From: a virus
Length of the DNA stretch: 38,014 nt
IMG/VR virus record: IMGVR_UViG_3300008266_000177
Span: 1 to 38,014 of that record
Direction: 5' to 3' (one strand)
Part shown: positions 17,768 through 28,217 of the stretch, in pieces
Position numbering within the stretch: position 1 is the stretch's first letter
Layout of the letters: every line of letters begins with the position of its first letter
Translations under genes and position numbers: made by a program
The notes under the pieces: model-generated
Seen by the model: only the letters and a program-made list of their open reading frames with translations
The model's database searches: none
What the model was told of the DNA's origin: nothing

Positions 17768-19168
17768 ATGCAAATCCCTGTTCTGAACGGAGTTTACACG
17801 GACGGGGTTGCGGACTTCCGCACCTCATATCCCGTGAACATGGTCCCTGTTCCAAAAGAGCAGGGAATTTCCAATGGCTACTTGCGGCCGGCAGAAGGTT
17901 TGGTTCAAGACGGTTTAGGTCCTGGAGCAAGTCGTGGCGGCATCAATTGGAATGGTATCTGCTACCGCGTCATGGGTACCAAACTTGTATCTGTCGATAG
18001 TGAAGGTGCAGTTAGAATTTTAGGCGACGTCGGCGAAGGCGGGCAGTGCACATTTGACTACTCATTTGACAGACTTGGCATCTCTTCAGGAGGCAGACTA
18101 TATTACTGGAGCGGCAGTGTCTTGTCTCAAGTTACAGATCCAGACATTGGCACAGTCACTGACTTTGTCTGGGTGGATGGTTACTTCATGACCACCGACG
18201 GCCAGAGTCTGATCGTCACTGAGCTGAACAACCCACTTGCAGTGAACCCGTTGAAGTACGGCAGCTCTGAAGTCGACCCAGACCCAGTTGTTGGCTTGGT
18301 CAAAGTGCGCAATGAGGTGTACGCCATCAACAGAAACACCATTGAAGTTTTCGACAACATTGGCGGTGACTTCTTTCCATTCCAACGTATTGATGGAGCG
18401 CAGATTCCTAAAGGGGCTCTCGGTACTTATTGCGCTTGCGTCTTCATCGACACTGTCGCATTCCTTGGTAGTGGTCGTAATGAACCACCGTCAATCTACC
18501 TTGGTGCCAATGCTTCTGCGATCAAGATCAGCACTCAGGAAATTGACGAGATTCTCCAGACTTACACTGAGGCTCAACTTGCCCAATCGATTCTTGAGTC
18601 GCGAGTCAATAAAGCCCACCAGCATCTTTGGGTGAGACTTCCTGACCAAACACTAGTCTATGACGCAGCCGCGTCTCAGACACTACAAGAACCCGTTTGG
18701 TACCATCTGACCAGCTCCATTGTTGGGTTCTCTGAGTATCTGGCTAAGGACTTGGTCTGGTGCTACAACAAGTGGTTGGTTGGACATCCATTTTCTGGCG
18801 TCGTAGGTCACCTCGACGACGCCATCTCCACCCATTTTGGTCAGGACGTCCGCTGGGAGTTCGGCACTCTTGTTGTGTACAACGAAGGGCGAGGAGCCAT
18901 CTTCCATGAACTTGAACTTGTTTGCCTGACGGGTCGTGTGGCTTTTGGTGCTGACCCAACCATCAGCACCTCGTACTCGGTTGATGGCGAGACATGGAGC
19001 CAGGACAAGACTGTCAAAGTCGGTAAACGAGGCGACAGATCTAAGCGCATCATTTGGCTTCAACAAGGTCACATGAGAAACTGGCGCGTACAGCGCTTCC
19101 GCGGTGACAGCAAATCCTTCATCTCAATTGCGCGTCTTGAAGCGCGCCTAGAACCTTTGGCGGTGTAA
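17768..19168 (+). CDS. DNA-stabilisation / tail hub protein, P22 gp10 type
   Basis: A 466-aa protein close to P22 gp10 (472 aa), a tail hub factor that holds packaged DNA in place and joins gp4 to the needle and spikes. The start (IPVLNGVY, then SYPVNMVPVPKEQGISNGYLRPAEGL) is the typical gp10 opening. Repeated beta-propeller-like stretches (YWSGSVLSQVTDP, VDGYFMTTDGQSLIV) follow. Starts 4 bp after the previous gene; the next gene begins 1 bp after its stop. Confidence 0.92.
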   Translation: MQIPVLNGVYTDGVADFRTSYPVNMVPVPKEQGISNGYLRPAEGLVQDGLGPGASRGGINWNGICYRVMGTKLVSVDSEGAVRILGDVGEGGQCTFDYSFDRLGISSGGRLYYWSGSVLSQVTDPDIGTVTDFVWVDGYFMTTDGQSLIVTELNNPLAVNPLKYGSSEVDPDPVVGLVKVRNEVYAINRNTIEVFDNIGGDFFPFQRIDGAQIPKGALGTYCACVFIDTVAFLGSGRNEPPSIYLGANASAIKISTQEIDEILQTYTEAQLAQSILESRVNKAHQHLWVRLPDQTLVYDAAASQTLQEPVWYHLTSSIVGFSEYLAKDLVWCYNKWLVGHPFSGVVGHLDDAISTHFGQDVRWEFGTLVVYNEGRGAIFHELELVCLTGRVAFGADPTISTSYSVDGETWSQDKTVKVGKRGDRSKRIIWLQQGHMRNWRVQRFRGDSKSFISIARLEARLEPLAV

Positions 19169-19169
19169 T

Positions 19170-21050
19170 ATGGCAGACCCTAGACCGCTAACCCGTGAAA
19201 CTCTGGCCAAGTTCTTGCCAGACCAGGAGTCCATCCGCAGATTTGAACGGTTGTTCTATGTTGCGGGAGACCTGACTCCTGCCGACATTGCCATGCTGAC
19301 ACGTCTTTCGCAAGAGTCTTCAATCGATGCGAATACAGCCCAAGCTTCTGCCCAGTCGGCGCTTGATCAGCTTGGCCAAATTGTCCAAGACGCAGCCATC
19401 AATGCTGGTGCCGCTGACGGCAAGGCCACTCAGGCCTTGGACTTGCTTGGTAGGATCGCCCAGTCTCTTGAGTTGTTGGCCACTGCCCCTACAGCCCGTG
19501 AGGATAACTTCATCGGCACGGATTACATCGACGTCAACACAGTTGCTCCGACTGTGGTTGGGGGTGTGCCAGGTCGCATGAAGTGGAATGATACTGACGG
19601 CACTCTTGACCTTGGTTTAAAGGGCGGAAATGTCACACTTCAAATCGGACAGGAGAATGTCCTCATTGTCAAGAATGATGAAGCAACTGCCCTCACTGAT
19701 GGCGAAGTGGTCTATGTCTCAGGAGCTTCTGGCGCCAACCTGCTTGTCAAGCGGGCTCTGGCCGATTCTGACGTAACGTCGGCAAGCACCATTGGCATCG
19801 TGACAGAGCCAATTGGCGTCAACGGTCAGGGATACATCACCACTTTTGGCCAAGTGCGCGGCCTTAACACGTCTGCCTTCAATGAAGGCGACATCTTGTA
19901 TCTGTCACCAACGGTAGCTGGTCAAATCACCAACGTGAAGCCTACTGCTCCTCAGCACATGGTGACAGTTGGGTATTGCACCAAGAAGTCTGCCGGCAAC
20001 GGCGAAATCTTCACAAAGGTTGATAATGGGTACGAGGTAGATGAACTTCACAATGTGTTGATCACTAATCCGGTCTTGGCCGGAAGTTTGCTGATCTATG
20101 ACGCAACTGTTGGAGTTTGGAAAAATGCCCGACTGACTGCTGGTACCAACGTCGCCATCACAAACGCAGACGGGTCAATCACAATTGCCGTGGCTGGCGC
20201 AGCACCCACTGGAGCGGCCGGCGGCGTCCTTAGTGGCACATACCCAAACCCAGGTTTTGATGTTGACATGGCCACACAGGCTGAACTTGATACAGCAATT
20301 GCCACGCGTGAACCAACGATCACTGCTGGAACGACTGTGCAGTATTGGCGCGGTGACAAAACTTGGCAAGACTTGTTTGCCCAAGTCAGAGCTGCAACTC
20401 TAACTGGTTTATCTACAGCCACCAATGCAGTTATCACAGCTGCTGACACTGTGCTGTCGGCGCTTGGAAAGTTGCAGAAGCAGATCAGTGATAATCTGAC
20501 GACTTTGTCAAGCCACACTGGCGCAACAGCGGCACACGGTGCGACCGGCGCGGTTGTAGGCACGACCAATACACAGACGTTGACTAACAAGACACTGACG
20601 GCGGCGGTGCTTGGTGGCACAACGGATGTTTCTGGTGGTCAATTGAAGTTTCCGTCGACTCAGTCAGCATCAACAGACCCGAACACTTTGGATGATTATG
20701 AAGAGGGGACCTGGACGCCTACCGTGTCTGCTGCCTCTGGAGCAATTACCAGTTACACGATCAATAGTGCAACCTATACCAAAATTGGGCGCCAGGTCCT
20801 ATTGAACTTTGACTACACAATCACCAACAATGGGACAGGTGGTTTGGCCACTTTTCTCAACGGCCTGCCTTTCAATGTCTCAGGAGGGGCCAACGCTTCC
20901 ATGGGGACTGCCCGTGAGGTGGCCGTAAACGGGACTCTTGGTTGTGTGTACCCGTCAGGAGTAAGCCAGTTGGTTGTAATCTCTTACAATAACGGCTACC
21001 TTGGTGGTACCAACTGGCGCATTGTCGGCTCTGTGGCTTACAACGCGTAA
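19170..21050 (+). CDS. Tail fibre-like structural protein, 626 aa
   Basis: A 626-aa protein. The N-terminal ~110 residues are helical (PDQESIRRFERLFYV, ASAQSALDQLGQIVQDAA), suggesting a trimeric coiled coil that anchors to the tail. The middle holds virion-type beta repeats (GEVVYVSGASGANLLVKRA, GDILYLSPTVAG). Then come a TNKTLT repeat-type stretch and a C-terminal domain opening with DDYEEGTWTPTVS, a common receptor-facing domain of phage tail proteins. It occupies the place of the P22 tail needle (gp26) but is much longer. It probably forms a central needle/fibre or side fibres. Confidence 0.8.
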   Translation: MADPRPLTRETLAKFLPDQESIRRFERLFYVAGDLTPADIAMLTRLSQESSIDANTAQASAQSALDQLGQIVQDAAINAGAADGKATQALDLLGRIAQSLELLATAPTAREDNFIGTDYIDVNTVAPTVVGGVPGRMKWNDTDGTLDLGLKGGNVTLQIGQENVLIVKNDEATALTDGEVVYVSGASGANLLVKRALADSDVTSASTIGIVTEPIGVNGQGYITTFGQVRGLNTSAFNEGDILYLSPTVAGQITNVKPTAPQHMVTVGYCTKKSAGNGEIFTKVDNGYEVDELHNVLITNPVLAGSLLIYDATVGVWKNARLTAGTNVAITNADGSITIAVAGAAPTGAAGGVLSGTYPNPGFDVDMATQAELDTAIATREPTITAGTTVQYWRGDKTWQDLFAQVRAATLTGLSTATNAVITAADTVLSALGKLQKQISDNLTTLSSHTGATAAHGATGAVVGTTNTQTLTNKTLTAAVLGGTTDVSGGQLKFPSTQSASTDPNTLDDYEEGTWTPTVSAASGAITSYTINSATYTKIGRQVLLNFDYTITNNGTGGLATFLNGLPFNVSGGANASMGTAREVAVNGTLGCVYPSGVSQLVVISYNNGYLGGTNWRIVGSVAYNA

Positions 21051-21074: not shown

Positions 21075-21410
21075 ATGACTGTCACGGTAAAAAACATCAT
21101 CCCGCGTAAGCAGGCAGAAAATACGCAGACTACCCAATACACAGCTCAAGACTGTAAAACTATCATTGACAAGTTCACAGTCACAAATACTACTGCGGCC
21201 AACGTGCCACTCAGCGTCAATCTTGTGGCTGCAACATCAACCGCTGCCGCCAATAATTTGGTCTTGAAGACCAGGTCTATCGCCCCGAACGAGACCTACA
21301 CCTGCCCTGAGCTTGTGGGTCAGGTTCTTGAGGCTGGCGGTTTCATCTCCACACTTGCCGGCACCGCCTCGGCGCTAACTATCAGCGCTTCTGGTCGTGA
21401 AATAACCTAG
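21075..21410 (+). CDS. Small beta-rich virion protein, 111 aa
   Basis: A 111-aa Thr/Ala-rich protein with an immunoglobulin-like beta pattern (TIIDKFTVTNTTAANVPLSVNLV, then LVLKTRSIAPNETYTCPELVG and SALTISASGREI). Proteins of this type occur after tail fibre genes in podoviruses and are taken as virion decoration or fibre-associated components. TTAGGAGTAAG precedes the ATG. It is followed by a structured non-coding gap. Confidence 0.75.
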   Translation: MTVTVKNIIPRKQAENTQTTQYTAQDCKTIIDKFTVTNTTAANVPLSVNLVAATSTAAANNLVLKTRSIAPNETYTCPELVGQVLEAGGFISTLAGTASALTISASGREIT

Positions 21411-21413
21411 CGG

Positions 21414-21471
21414 TTTACAAGGTGGGTAGATGCGTGTTAGTATCTGCCCACCTGTGGTACTAGATGCCACA
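21414..21471 (+). promoter_or_regulatory. Candidate rightward promoter overlapping two hairpins
   Basis: CGGTTTACA gives a -35 (21414-21419), an 18-bp spacer and a weak -10 TAGTAT (21438-21443). Overlapping it are an 11-bp stem with one G-U pair (21421-21431 with 21442-21452) and a 5-bp stem (21453-21457 with 21467-21471). No U tract follows, so these may be terminators without Us, a processing site or an operator. The gap to the next gene is 118 bp, long for this arm. Confidence 0.4.
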
Positions 21472-21528
21472 GCAGCTGAGCCTAACGAGCAGCCAGCAGC
21501 TCATACCACCCTGAAAAGGAGAGTTTGA

Positions 21529-22395
21529 ATGCTGGCTGAAACCAAATCCCACAGTATTGTGGATCCTGCCAAGATCGATCAGGTTGAATCCCACCTCTTG
21601 GACCTGCCTCAAGTCGAGTGCCCAGTTGTCCACCACTTCGGTCCTGGTATCTACATCCGCGAAGTCACCCTGCCTGCCGGCACACTTGCCATCGGTCACG
21701 CGCAGCGGTTTGAACACCTTAACATCATGCTGACAGGCGCAGTTGCCATGGTCGGTGACGATGGTCAGACCAAAGTGCTGCGAGCACCCATGATCTTTGT
21801 GGGTAAGCCAGGACGCAAACTTGGCTACGTGCTCGAGACCTGCATCTGGCAGAACGTCTACGCCACTGACGAGCGCGACATCGACAAACTTGAATCGATG
21901 TTTCTTGACAAGAGCGCCACATGGCAAGCTCACGCCGAAGTTGCCAAGCAACTTGAGACGTACCACCGCCGCGAAGATCGCGAAGACTTTGAGCTTGTTG
22001 TTCGCCTCGCTGGTTTCACCCCAGCTTCGGTTCAAGCCCAGTCTGAAAATCCACACGATCAGATCCACATGCCCAGTGGCTTTGCTACAAAGTTCACTGT
22101 GCGCGACTCGACTATCGAGGGCAAGGGCGTCTTTCTGAGCGCCCCAGTTGATGACGGTGAAGTCATTGCACCAGCCCGCATCGACGGCATGCGCACACCT
22201 GCTGGTCGTTACACCAACCACGCCAAAAACCCCAACGCCAAGTTTATCAAGGATGAGAACGGGGACATCTGGCTTGTGGCGACTCGGCGAATTGCTGGTT
22301 GCGTTGGCGGCAGCCAAGGTGAAGAGGTCACAGTTGACTACCGCCAAGCTCTCGCCCTCTCGGGCATCAATCTAATCGAAGGAGAATCCCAATGA
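21529..22395 (+). CDS. Cupin-SET domain fusion, predicted protein methyltransferase
   Basis: A 288-aa protein with two recognisable parts. Residues about 34-110 form a cupin-like beta barrel (LPAGTLAIGHAQRFEHLNIML, then APMIFVGKPGRKLGYVLE). Residues about 187-275 form a compact SET domain: G198-KGVF, the NHS-like RYTNHAKNPN (227-236) and GEEVTVDY (264-271), the motifs that bind AdoMet and the target lysine in SET methyltransferases. The usual RFxNHSCxPN has Ala for Ser and lacks the Cys. It lies between virion and ejection genes, so the likely targets are phage structural or host proteins. AAAGGAGAG precedes the ATG; the stop overlaps the next gene. Confidence 0.85.
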   Translation: MLAETKSHSIVDPAKIDQVESHLLDLPQVECPVVHHFGPGIYIREVTLPAGTLAIGHAQRFEHLNIMLTGAVAMVGDDGQTKVLRAPMIFVGKPGRKLGYVLETCIWQNVYATDERDIDKLESMFLDKSATWQAHAEVAKQLETYHRREDREDFELVVRLAGFTPASVQAQSENPHDQIHMPSGFATKFTVRDSTIEGKGVFLSAPVDDGEVIAPARIDGMRTPAGRYTNHAKNPNAKFIKDENGDIWLVATRRIAGCVGGSQGEEVTVDYRQALALSGINLIEGESQ

Positions 22396-23036
22396 GTGGA
22401 ATCGCAACGGCCGTCGTGGCTGGATCGGTCATCACAGGTGTGATGGCCAGCAACGCACAGTCTGACGCAGCATCGGCGGCTGCTGGCGCACAAACTGCAT
22501 CAAGTCAAGCATCTATTGAGGAACAACGTCGCCAATTTGACGCGGTCCAGAAGTTGCTCTCCCCTTACGTCACCGCCGGTGAATCGGCGATCGGCGGGCA
22601 GCAAGGTCTACTGGGCCTTGCTGGACCTGCTGCTCAACGCGAGGCAATTGCCGGAATCGAGTCGTCTCCCCAGTTTCAATCAATGATGCAACAAGGCGAG
22701 AACGCCATCTTGCAAAACGCCTCGGCAACTGGCGGACTACGCGGCGGCAACGTCCAAGCCACTCTTGCTCAGTTCCGTCCGCAGTTGCTAAGCCAGTTGA
22801 TCGAATCCCAGTTCAGCAAACTTGGCACAATCTCAGGTCTTGGCCAAGCTTCTGCAGCAGGTCAAGCCGCCGCGGCACAACAGACTGGGGCCAATATCGG
22901 CAACGCCTTGACGCAACAAGGCCAGGCAGCCGCTGGTGCAGCTCTGGCGCAAGGTCAGGCCCAGGCTCAAATGTGGGGTAACATCGGCGGCACCATTGGC
23001 AATGTTGCCACGCTCAAAGCTCTTAAGGTGTTCTAA
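22392..23036 (+). CDS. DNA ejection protein, P22 gp7-like position
   Basis: A 214-aa Ala/Gln/Gly-rich protein. It begins with a hydrophobic segment (ATAVVAGSVITGVMASNAQ), followed by helices and the SPQFQSMMQQGENAILQNASATGGLRGGN stretch seen in many podovirus injection proteins, and ends with repeated AAGQAAAAQQ-type sequence. It overlaps the SET gene by 4 bases and leads a run of three large low-complexity proteins, the order gp7-gp20-gp16 of P22. It is presumably packed in the head and delivered into the cell envelope with DNA. Confidence 0.78.
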   Translation: MSGIATAVVAGSVITGVMASNAQSDAASAAAGAQTASSQASIEEQRRQFDAVQKLLSPYVTAGESAIGGQQGLLGLAGPAAQREAIAGIESSPQFQSMMQQGENAILQNASATGGLRGGNVQATLAQFRPQLLSQLIESQFSKLGTISGLGQASAAGQAAAAQQTGANIGNALTQQGQAAAGAALAQGQAQAQMWGNIGGTIGNVATLKALKVF

Positions 23037-23038
23037 TC

Positions 23039-24334
23039 ATGGCACAACCATTCAACTATATGCTCAACGTACCCGACCCGACCCAGTCGGTCATGGGTGG
23101 TGTTCAGAACGCGCTCAGCATTTCCAACATGATGTCTCAGCGCAACTTGGCGGAGCAAAAAGCTCTCGACTTGCAAAAAGCCCGAGAAACTCAGGCGCAG
23201 ATGGAGGCAGATCTTGGCACCTTGTCAAAGAACCCGACTCCGTCAGCTTTGGCCAGCATGATGGTCAAGTACCCTAGTCTGAGTGAGAACTTCAAACGCA
23301 CCTATGACGTGCTCAGCACTGAACAGAAGGACTCGCGCTTGGGGCAAGCTACTCAGGTCTACGCTGCACTCCAATCTGGCAAGCCGGAGATTGCCCAGCA
23401 GTTGCTGACTGAGCAAGCCACGGCCTACCGCAACTCAGGCCAGGAGCGTGAAGCCAAGACACTTGAGGACCTGGGCGTGCTGATCAAGACAAGCCCTGAG
23501 ACAGCCAAGACGTCGACAGGTCTCTTCTTGGCTTCTGCCATGGGACCTGACAAGTTCACAGAGACATTCACCAAGCTTCAAGGCGAGCAGCGTGAAGCTG
23601 AGTTGCAGCCGTCCAAACTTACTGAATCCCAAGCCAAGGCCCAGAAAGCCGCAGTTGAGGCCAAGTTTGCCGAATCTGGAGCCGTGCTTGACCTGCAGAA
23701 GAAAGGTTGGGACATCACGAAGATCCAGGAGGACATCAAGATCGCCAAGCAGAATGCTTCGATCGCAGCCCTCAATGCTCAGATCGCGCGTGAGGGTAAC
23801 CAGATCAAACGTGAGGAGAACCAACTCAAGTTGCAGGACATGGTCCAGAAGCGTGACGAGGCGGTGCGAGCTAAAGCAGCCGACCTTGAGTCTGCTCGCA
23901 CGAACATGGACAACATGCTCAACACGGCCGACCGCATCCTGAAGACTCCTATTGGTGTGATTGGTTCAGCTGCTGGTCCGGTGTCATCGCGCATGCCCAC
24001 ACTCAGCCAGGACACGGCCGACTTCGAGGCTTTAGTTGAGACGCTTGGGTCACAGTCGTTCATGGCCCAGATACCCAACATCAAAGGCATGGGCGCACTG
24101 TCCAACGCCGAAGGCGAAAAGCTTCAGGCTGCCTTGCAGAATTTCAGCTTGAAGCAGTCTCCTGAGCGGTTGCTTGAAAACGTGCGCGAGGCACAGCGCT
24201 TGGTCATGAAGGCGCGGAAGAACATGACTGCTCGAGCAGGTTTGCCTGAGACCATTCCAGACACGCCTGCCGTGAGCACGTCTGGTGGTGACATCGATGC
24301 ACTCGTGAAGAAGTACACACAAGGAGCCCGCTAA
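23039..24334 (+). CDS. DNA ejection protein, P22 gp20-like position
   Basis: A 431-aa largely helical protein. Residues about 190-300 form a long Gln/Lys/Glu/Ala-rich coiled-coil region (IKIAKQNASIAALNAQIAREG). A globular end follows, with ALVETLGSQSFMAQIPNIKGMGALSNAEG. It starts 2 bp after the gp7-like gene and its stop codon overlaps the start of the gp16-like gene by one base. Composition and position suggest the second ejection protein, which joins the channel across periplasm and inner membrane. Confidence 0.72.
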   Translation: MAQPFNYMLNVPDPTQSVMGGVQNALSISNMMSQRNLAEQKALDLQKARETQAQMEADLGTLSKNPTPSALASMMVKYPSLSENFKRTYDVLSTEQKDSRLGQATQVYAALQSGKPEIAQQLLTEQATAYRNSGQEREAKTLEDLGVLIKTSPETAKTSTGLFLASAMGPDKFTETFTKLQGEQREAELQPSKLTESQAKAQKAAVEAKFAESGAVLDLQKKGWDITKIQEDIKIAKQNASIAALNAQIAREGNQIKREENQLKLQDMVQKRDEAVRAKAADLESARTNMDNMLNTADRILKTPIGVIGSAAGPVSSRMPTLSQDTADFEALVETLGSQSFMAQIPNIKGMGALSNAEGEKLQAALQNFSLKQSPERLLENVREAQRLVMKARKNMTARAGLPETIPDTPAVSTSGGDIDALVKKYTQGAR

Positions 24335-26246: not shown

Positions 26247-28217
26247 ATGTCGAATGCTTATTCTGTTACACCGCCCTATCCGATCTTTACGGATGTTGAT
26301 GGCAACCCGCTAGAAGACGGTTTTATCTACATCGGGCAGGCCAACATGAACCCAGAAGTTGCGCCAGTGCCAATCTATTGGGACGCTGAAGGAACTATCC
26401 CAGCTGTTCAACCTGTGCGAACAAGCGGAGGCTATCCTGTGCGCAATGGTACCCCATCGAGAATTTACACTGGCCAAGTGTACTCGATAACTGTCCGAAA
26501 CAAAAATGGGTCGTTCATCTATTCGTCCCCATACGCGACAGACTCGTTTGACTCGTCGTTTATCAGATACGTGGCTGGCGGTGTTGGAGCCGCAGACCAA
26601 ACTGTCCAAATCAAACTTCAAGAGAGTGTCAGCGTCAAAGATTTTGGCGGTGTCGGAGATGGTTCAACTAGTGACCAAGTTGCTGTGGTCAACACAATTG
26701 CTTCTGGTGCAAAAGAAGTTACTGTGAACGACAATCTGAAGTTTCTTGTCACCTCGTTTTCAAACAACATGGGCGTCGAACTTAAAGGTAAGGGCGCTAT
26801 CGTCAAGGCCATTACAGGAGGCCTCCAGCAATTGAACACGTACGCAGACAAAGACAAATACATCTTTGGGCGCGAGTACATGGCCGCCTTCCACAATTTG
26901 CTTATAGGCCAGATGGCCACACCAGGTCGCAAGCCAATTATGGTGTTTTCTGGAGACTCAACCACCGCTGGAGTGGGTGTGAGTTCTGACTACACAATTA
27001 ATGAGTTGCTCAAGACTGCTGGCGAGGTTTCAGGTCTCCAGACTCCCTACGGTCTTAGTTCTATTAACAGAGGTCAATCTGGCGCAAACACCGCACAATG
27101 GGTGACTTCGTATTTGGCAGGTGACCTTGCAGCAAATCCTGATCTTCTGGTGTTGCGTTGGGGCATCAACGATCCTGGATGGCTCCAAAATGGAACCACT
27201 CCCCCATTGGACGCCGGACAATCGTACCCAGGGCGCAGGACTCCTGCAGACTTCATTGCATCGCTGCGTCAAGGACTGACTACGATTCGCGCAAGCAGGG
27301 GAGTTGGCAGCCTGTCGATCCTTCTGATGTCTCCGAATTCGACTTCTGACACACCAAACGCTCGTGATGAGTTGTACTACGAAGCAATCGCGGCTGGAAT
27401 TAAACAAGCGGCCAGAGACTTCCTGTGTACGTTCATTGACACCTACGCTCTGCTCAAAGACTCTCGTCCTGCGGCAACCATTTGGATGGATGACCCGTTT
27501 GGTGACGGGCGAGGAATTCACCCCTTGAACGTAATGAATTCGTGGATTGCTGGAGTGATGTCTGACGTCGTTTTTCCGACTGGGCTGCGTCAAAAGATTG
27601 GGCGCGCAAATGTTCGCTCAACTGGTGGTGCTGAAGATGTTGGTGACGCTTCTAGACTTCCAACCTACTACAACTACGGTATCACGATAAGCCGGGCGAC
27701 TGCTGGTTTTCCGCTGAACGGCATGGTTACTACTACACGTGGTTCAGACGAAATTGTGACGCAGGTCAATGTTGGGTATCGGGACGCAGACCTTGGTCTT
27801 TCGTACGTAAGGGTCGGTCGTTCGGCCATCCTTGATGGCCTGCCAATAGCGTGGGGCAGTTGGGTTCGCACAGGTTCGGCTTCTGCACAAGTTGCCGCGG
27901 CAACTGGATACACGAATCCTGGAGCCGGCGGTATGCGCGTTGCAACTAGCGGTTCACAAGTCTGCATCGAAGGCTATTTGACAATGAACACCCCGGGAAT
28001 TATTGGCGCGGGAACAACGATTGGAACTGTGCCTGTTGGTTACCGCCCAATTGTTGATGCCTTTTATACAAGCGGAGCAGTTGTGTACAACGGAACTGTT
28101 TTTGCCGGGGCCTTGGTCCGCATCCAAAGTAACGGCGACATCGTTGTTGTGAATGCAACAGGCATTAACGGCAACCGTGTCTATTTGAATGGCGCTTGGT
28201 CATTGACAACTCAATAA
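26247..28217 (+). CDS. Tailspike: P22 head-binding domain plus SGNH esterase domain
   Basis: A 656-aa receptor-binding protein. Residues 1-105 match the P22 tailspike head-binding domain (PYPIFTDVDGNPLEDGFIYIG, later PVRTSGGYPV and RIYTGQVYS). Residues 129-145 (SVKDFGGVGDGSTSD) are the usual opening of a right-handed beta-helix. Instead of a long helix, residues about 228-440 form an SGNH/GDSL hydrolase: FSGDSTT (Ser238), NRGQSG (Gly276), RWGIND (Asn308) and DGRGIHPL (His425, with Asp420 four residues apart rather than the usual two). It probably deacetylates or de-esterifies host surface polysaccharide. The C-terminal 200 residues are beta-rich and may trimerise. Confidence 0.9.
   Translation: MSNAYSVTPPYPIFTDVDGNPLEDGFIYIGQANMNPEVAPVPIYWDAEGTIPAVQPVRTSGGYPVRNGTPSRIYTGQVYSITVRNKNGSFIYSSPYATDSFDSSFIRYVAGGVGAADQTVQIKLQESVSVKDFGGVGDGSTSDQVAVVNTIASGAKEVTVNDNLKFLVTSFSNNMGVELKGKGAIVKAITGGLQQLNTYADKDKYIFGREYMAAFHNLLIGQMATPGRKPIMVFSGDSTTAGVGVSSDYTINELLKTAGEVSGLQTPYGLSSINRGQSGANTAQWVTSYLAGDLAANPDLLVLRWGINDPGWLQNGTTPPLDAGQSYPGRRTPADFIASLRQGLTTIRASRGVGSLSILLMSPNSTSDTPNARDELYYEAIAAGIKQAARDFLCTFIDTYALLKDSRPAATIWMDDPFGDGRGIHPLNVMNSWIAGVMSDVVFPTGLRQKIGRANVRSTGGAEDVGDASRLPTYYNYGITISRATAGFPLNGMVTTTRGSDEIVTQVNVGYRDADLGLSYVRVGRSAILDGLPIAWGSWVRTGSASAQVAAATGYTNPGAGGMRVATSGSQVCIEGYLTMNTPGIIGAGTTIGTVPVGYRPIVDAFYTSGAVVYNGTVFAGALVRIQSNGDIVVVNATGINGNRVYLNGAWSLTTQ

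Follow-up and report, generated by a model that had tools for sequence, protein, structure and literature searches.

The 38,014-nt viral DNA analysed here (the window) encodes a cupin-SET fusion protein directly upstream of its first ejection ("pilot") protein, and comparison with relatives suggests that the two products work together, as the pilot starts differently according to whether a SET domain is present. We consider the chances about even that the fusion is a dedicated pilot partner whose SET domain likely methylates the ejection machinery during assembly. The 288-aa open reading frame runs on the plus strand from an ATG at 21529 to a TGA at 22393-22395, exactly the span (21529-22395) for which such a fusion was originally predicted, and an AGGAG-like stretch lies immediately 5′ of its ATG. 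Its stop overlaps, via ATGA, the start of the P22 gp7-like pilot gene (22392-23036, plus strand; Pfam PF25688, E 3.3e-11; PHROG 598), which is followed by the gene for a P22 gp20-like second ejection protein (23039-24334, plus strand; PHROG 2534, E 5e-32). Two genes (19170-21050 and 21075-21410) separate the fusion gene from a P22 gp10-like head-closure gene further upstream (17768-19168). The predicted placement between a virion protein and the first ejection protein thus holds.

The AlphaFold model of the protein, built from 25 sequences (pLDDT 87.8, pTM 0.81), matches both the SET and the cupin fold, which structure prediction had been proposed to confirm; the single sequence, compared with solved chains, gave no match. 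The plus-strand gene encodes a jelly-roll cupin domain (approximately residues 17-131; 21577-21921), seen in the model and by homology to lone-cupin podophage proteins, a helical linker (approximately residues 132-185; 21922-22083) and a mini-SET domain that lacks SET-I (approximately residues 186-276; 22084-22356). Pfam PF00856 (SET) scores 24.3 bits (E 4.5e-5) over residues 214-271, where the cut-off is 22.4, a match that spans just profile positions 62-104 of 105, and a profile of 23 SET halves matches MLL2, MLL1, EZH2 and PBCV-1 vSET with E values from 9e-10 for MLL2/MLL1 to 1e-4 for vSET. The best solved SET match to the model is the MLL1 SET domain (Z 10.8, 2.0 Å over 81 residues; model residues 181-272), and vSET gives Z 9.9.

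The core motifs NHAKNPN and GEEVTVDY, picked out at the start, are almost invariant among the 130 SET-bearing relatives listed. Motif I (G198-K-G200; 22120-22128, plus strand) keeps G200 in 130/130 and G198 in 128/130 ORFs; motif III (N230-H-A-K-N-P-N236; 22216-22236, plus strand) keeps N230 and H231 each in 129/130 (one gap), P235 in 120/130 and N236 in 128-130/130; and in motif IV (G264-E-E-V-T-V-D-Y271; 22318-22341, plus strand) E266, T268 and Y271 occur in all 126 ORFs having letters there, all counts being among the matches listed. Y271 aligns to the second tyrosine of the MLL1 "YDY", a position that we take to be that of the expected catalytic tyrosine of SET. In 127 of these 130 listed ORFs, 30 residues separate GxG from NH, against 64 in MLL1, and SET-I is therefore gone. 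Residue 216, which a gap-free extension of the MLL profile alignment would place at the motif-II tyrosine, is alanine within a conserved PAR in 122/130 of the matches listed. The absent SET-I and this alanine together imply that the lysine channel is altered.

The window domain thus resembles PBCV-1 vSET and the MLL1/KMT2A SET domain in fold and in motifs I, III and IV, but differs from both in having no SET-I, an alanine for the motif-II tyrosine and a fused cupin. A SET-class lysine methyltransferase would carry the motif-II tyrosine and SET-I for its channel and peptide groove, and neither is found here; we class the domain as a SET fold and do not assign it to the lysine methyltransferases. 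Of the original prediction of a lysine methyltransferase, the SET fold is supported and the lysine activity is not. Purifying selection acts on both halves (median dN/dS 0.024 for the cupin and 0.075 for SET, in 14 close relatives), and motif retention with low dN/dS fits a domain that is functional and probably catalytic, its substrate groove being unusual. We regard it as probably SAM-dependent and active. The loss of SET-I and of the motif-II tyrosine would also suit a binding-only chaperone that docks on the pilot N-terminus, with AdoMet perhaps as a structural ligand and no catalysis. The degenerate metal motif of the cupin half and the lack of a conserved lysine target in the pilot, both described below, point the same way; pure docking, however, would need none of Y271, N230, H231 and GxG, near-invariant over the 130 divergent ORFs listed, and we think this reading rather unlikely.

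In the N-terminal half a jelly-roll barrel is present, as the model matches solved structures of the cupin fold, among them ppnP (Z 9.9, 83 residues; model residues 28-112). A Pfam scan of the window protein found no cupin family match, and a lone-cupin relative matches Cupin_2 at E 6.9e-5, under the cut-off of that family. If the cupin metal motif is, as we presume, HxH...E...H, it is degenerate here: H57 and H63 are kept, with Gln 59 and Trp 107 where that motif has His, and the window cupin is probably not a metal enzyme. Relatives of the domain include lone-cupin proteins of podophages that carry the annotation "short tail fiber" (PHROG 12032), as well as Bbp23 of BPP-1. PHROG 34170 ("unknown function") matches residues 13-284, i.e. 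the full length, at E 5e-92, and two PHROGs with "tail fiber" names match just the cupin half. The names of PHROGs 12032 and 24280, and those in GenBank, would make cupin-SET an adhesin or a short tail fibre that binds the receptor, a reading that we hold to be very improbable: to our knowledge the SET domain is no part of any adhesin, the gene position tracks the pilot and not tail fibre genes, and the support consists of names only, with no experiment found behind them. In the accessible part of the VvAW1 genome paper, the VvAW1 gene is listed as a hypothetical PHA00672 protein.

A survey of homologues, suggested with the original prediction, places the gene consistently. Each locus search took the best 80 loci, and among the matches listed are 258 unique cupins, 130 SET-bearing and 128 SET-less; at least six of the latter reach the contig end (L171, L230, L262, L257, L261 and L052) and yield no pilot count, and the L171 cupin is identical to a SET-bearing one. 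Among IMG/VR entries and named phages, SET accompanies the cupin in Rhodoferax phage P26218, phage zth2-2, spring-water contigs and Pseudoalteromonas phage PH1, and is lacking in Vibrio, Thalassomonas, Shewanella, Dickeya, Sphaerotilus and Bordetella phages. In 11 of 12 inspected records the next gene encodes an ejection or ejection-type protein, the exception being Alteromonas phage R8W. A pilot-type start lies at most 60 nt from the cupin ORF stop in 125/130 SET-bearing and 116/128 SET-less loci among the matches listed, mostly overlapping it, and the commonest overlaps in SET-bearing loci are 4 or 13 nt. Whether the gene order is T7-like, BPP-1-like or P22-like, the cupin is directly 5′ of the pilot with or without SET. 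In a carefully built cupin tree (95 rows), SET status has to change seven times, at least six of the changes being forced by starred branches, and on this tree SET has been gained or lost several times on one cupin. Paraburkholderia contig NZ_SCRP01000034 has two cupin-SET genes that differ from each other and lie some 83 kb apart (L431, 6001-6846, and L435, 6001-6768), probably in two prophages.

The pilot of the window begins MSGIATAV (22392-22415, plus strand), and residues 3 and 6 of this start track SET. SET-bearing phages mostly have pilots starting MS[GA][IV]AT, and SET-less ones MSW, MTW, MSF, MSV or MWV. Pilot residue 3 is Gly, Ala or Ser in 121/125 SET-bearing vs 7/116 SET-less loci among the matches listed, counts that still include the misread starts L045, L063, L268 and L270, and the contrast gives a Fisher p of 4e-54 that ignores relatedness. 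The pair tests on trees omit these four loci and L083, and the column and codon analyses omit L171 as well. On the pilot tree (FastTree, 236 rows, pilot bodies minus the first 12 residues), supported branches carry 10 independent pairs, of which a mean of 8.5 have the small residue with SET and 0.0 go against it (median p 0.004, range 0.004-0.125). The cupin tree has just four supported independent pairs, 3.2 for and 0.1 against, too few to test. Among 181 alignable pilot columns, residue 3 is the most informative on SET (0.54 bits), followed by residue 6 (0.35 bits). Status switches on the cupin tree show the same pattern: L240 (SET, MSGVAT) stands beside L234 (none, MSVVAA), L316 (SET, MSALIG) amid MSW/MSF relatives, and L158 (none, MSYVAL) beside L107 (SET, MSAIAV). 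Further changes of status fall in the L055/L255/L256/L258 group and at L339. A hold-out set of bacterial genome contigs, searched after the pattern had been noticed, gave 12 loci, among them a near relative of the window (L428); 10 are fused with a pilot-type ORF next, and in 10/10 of these pilot residue 3 is G, A or S.

The rule has exceptions. One fused locus (L048) has a pilot starting MSFVVS, and seven SET-less loci have a small residue 3 (L239, L260, L300, L296, L301, L309 and BPP-1, L054). In L339 (3620-4426) the fusion is reversed, with linker-SET N-terminal to the cupin, and the pilot starts MAFGIS; this arrangement probably arose separately. In a Comamonadaceae contig (L438, 6004-6468) linker-SET forms a separate gene, and a 95-aa ORF stands between it and a downstream pilot-like ORF with the start MSLGIS; a linker-like stretch precedes SET in both arrangements. 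In Paraburkholderia ferrariae (L439, 6390-7112) SET and cupin are two genes with no pilot next and with primase- and terminase-like genes near.

Because L339 and L438, in which SET does not adjoin the pilot start, lack the small residue, co-inheritance is a serious rival: the SET end and the first pilot codons may have travelled as one recombination block, and SET may act elsewhere. SET sits physically between cupin and pilot start, and the independent pairs on the cupin tree are few, as hitch-hiking would have it. SET-bearing loci nevertheless use every Gly and every Ala codon (four each) for the small residue at pilot codon 3, and where the overlap is at most 4 nt this residue is present in 79/81 SET-bearing vs 7/65 SET-less loci among the matches listed, which together argue that the residue class, and not merely a DNA stretch, is kept. 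The association also peaks at residues 3 and 6 of the 181 columns, and the SET loss at L158 and the separate gains at L240 and L316 switch the pilot start too, as block replacement could also do. On this evidence we rate hitch-hiking somewhat below even.

A lysine target is hard to find in the pilot. A column-wise search of SET-bearing pilots among the matches listed found no conserved lysine column (best 38/112), the first lysine never falls before residue 20, and 3/123 of the listed SET-bearing pilots have no lysine in the first 230 residues. With no conserved lysine, and none before residue 20, it is unlikely that the pilot N-terminus undergoes plain lysine methylation. Methylation could instead fall on the alpha-amine, on a scattered lysine or on a different protein, or not take place at all. 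Lysine is the usual substrate of SET enzymes, and pilots in SET-bearing loci contain 2.3% lysine, as against 33 lysines in the gp20-like protein of the window; the domain could thus methylate another protein (the second or third ejection protein, the capsid or a host protein), with pilot adjacency reflecting late-gene clustering. Against such a substrate stands the fact that almost every lineage, T7-like, BPP-1-like and P22-like orders included, couples the gene directly to the pilot, and we would not expect this reading to be the right one. Among the targets named in the original prediction, comparative evidence favours the ejection proteins, and nothing specific supports the capsid or a host protein.

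A more specific proposal, which we regard as a long shot, is that the mini-SET methylates the alpha-amino group of the pilot Ser-Gly/Ala end after Met removal. The small second residue would then be required for entry into the active site, the absent SET-I would open the groove to the chain end, and SET-less phages would anchor with a bulky residue (Trp, Phe or Val) instead. The modification would tune entry of the leading segment of the pilot into the host membrane as DNA ejection begins, and SET would have a role in virion assembly, one that we have not met in the literature seen. The Rubisco small subunit is reportedly methylated at its N-terminus by a known SET enzyme. It was set aside as a precedent, as the accessible part of PMC3991674 describes the enzyme as not identified.

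From the observed fold, motifs, gene coupling and association with the pilot start, we infer AdoMet binding, catalysis, substrate and timing as follows for the dedicated-partner reading favoured at the outset. The cupin barrel, which many unrelated podophages produce immediately before the pilot, would be the ancestral part, an assembly or docking protein, and this part would most likely bind the freshly made pilot, because its gene is coupled to the pilot gene across lineages. The C-terminal mini-SET would be an add-on, gained or lost several times; given its retained motifs it would bind S-adenosylmethionine and, during virion assembly, most likely methylate some part of the ejection machinery. 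According to the accessible part of PMC11784390, T7 gp14 spans the outer membrane following ejection. The finding bears on how podophage ejection proteins stay soluble, get loaded and insert into membranes: it would indicate that the pilot N-terminus undergoes a covalent or chaperone-like step, one absent from the ejection literature compared, and would give SET domains a job in virus-particle building.

The closest named relative is gp30 of Rhodoferax phage P26218 (AKA60333.1, PHROG 34170), which has the same full-length cupin-SET at 53% identity, likewise between gp10-like and gp7-like genes; a search of the accessible text of the P26218 genome paper finds no mention of SET or cupin. No study of a phage cupin-SET protein was found in the open-licence literature. 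Phage SET domains, the PHROG 34170 cluster and single members, one named after the PBCV-1 methyltransferase structure, are already in databases; new here are a minimal SET that lacks SET-I, the finding that one cupin has acquired and lost it repeatedly, and the connection between its presence and the first residues of the pilot. The lone cupins of PHROG 12032 (BPP-1 Bbp23 and those of Vibrio, Shewanella and Thalassomonas phages) share with the window a homologous cupin directly 5′ of the pilot, but are without SET, and their pilots mostly start MSW, MSF or MSV.

P22 gp14 and T7 gp13 are likewise encoded immediately before the first ejection protein, but belong to other Pfam families (DUF2824 and Phage_T7_Gp13, PF11090); scanned for both, the window protein gave no match, and no sequence relation to either was found. 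We presume that P22 gp14 and T7 gp13 may be GNAT-like; Pfam, PDB and NCBIfam yielded nothing useful on this link, and a structure model of P22 gp14 was unusable (pLDDT 41.9). In BPP-1 (L054, 8480-9399) a GNAT gene, Bbp24 (Pfam E 6.5e-7), overlaps lone cupin Bbp23, which is followed by pilot-like Bbp22. Pairing of the lone cupin with an acetyltransferase is not a rule: none of 56 proteins upstream of the cupin, a diversity pick from 109 SET-less cupin ORFs that does not include BPP-1, matches the GNAT model, and one matches the T7 gp13 family. Separately, two of these 56 match SLT (lytic transglycosylase), and at L176 (4360-4875) a lytic transglycosylase upstream of a SET-less cupin is read from place and sequence.

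The intergenic leader before the fusion gene (21411-21528, plus strand) contains two hairpins (21420-21453 and 21454-21470) that are kept in relatives. Its fold has a z score of -4.15, with 0/200 shuffles equally stable, and it is 94% conserved across 15 sequences, with three base pairs in which both sides have changed; about 30 nt 3′ of the hairpins are invariant in the 15 sequences compared. An Rfam search of the leader gave a sole match, below its gathering score. The hairpins of the predicted promoter-like/hairpin region are thus well supported, and its promoter-like match is weak (9/12 positions; 3 in the region vs 1.0 expected). The 111-aa gene just upstream (21075-21410) has relatives immediately 5′ of the cupin in 89/227 loci among the matches listed (60 SET-bearing, 29 SET-less), and a 295-aa open frame on the minus strand (21460-22347), opposite the cupin-SET gene, is taken as a codon-usage shadow. 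Elsewhere in the window, the tail protein at 26247-28217 combines a P22-type head-binding start, just under the cut-off, with a GDSL lipase/esterase domain (E 3.2e-14) and is perhaps a deacetylating tailspike.
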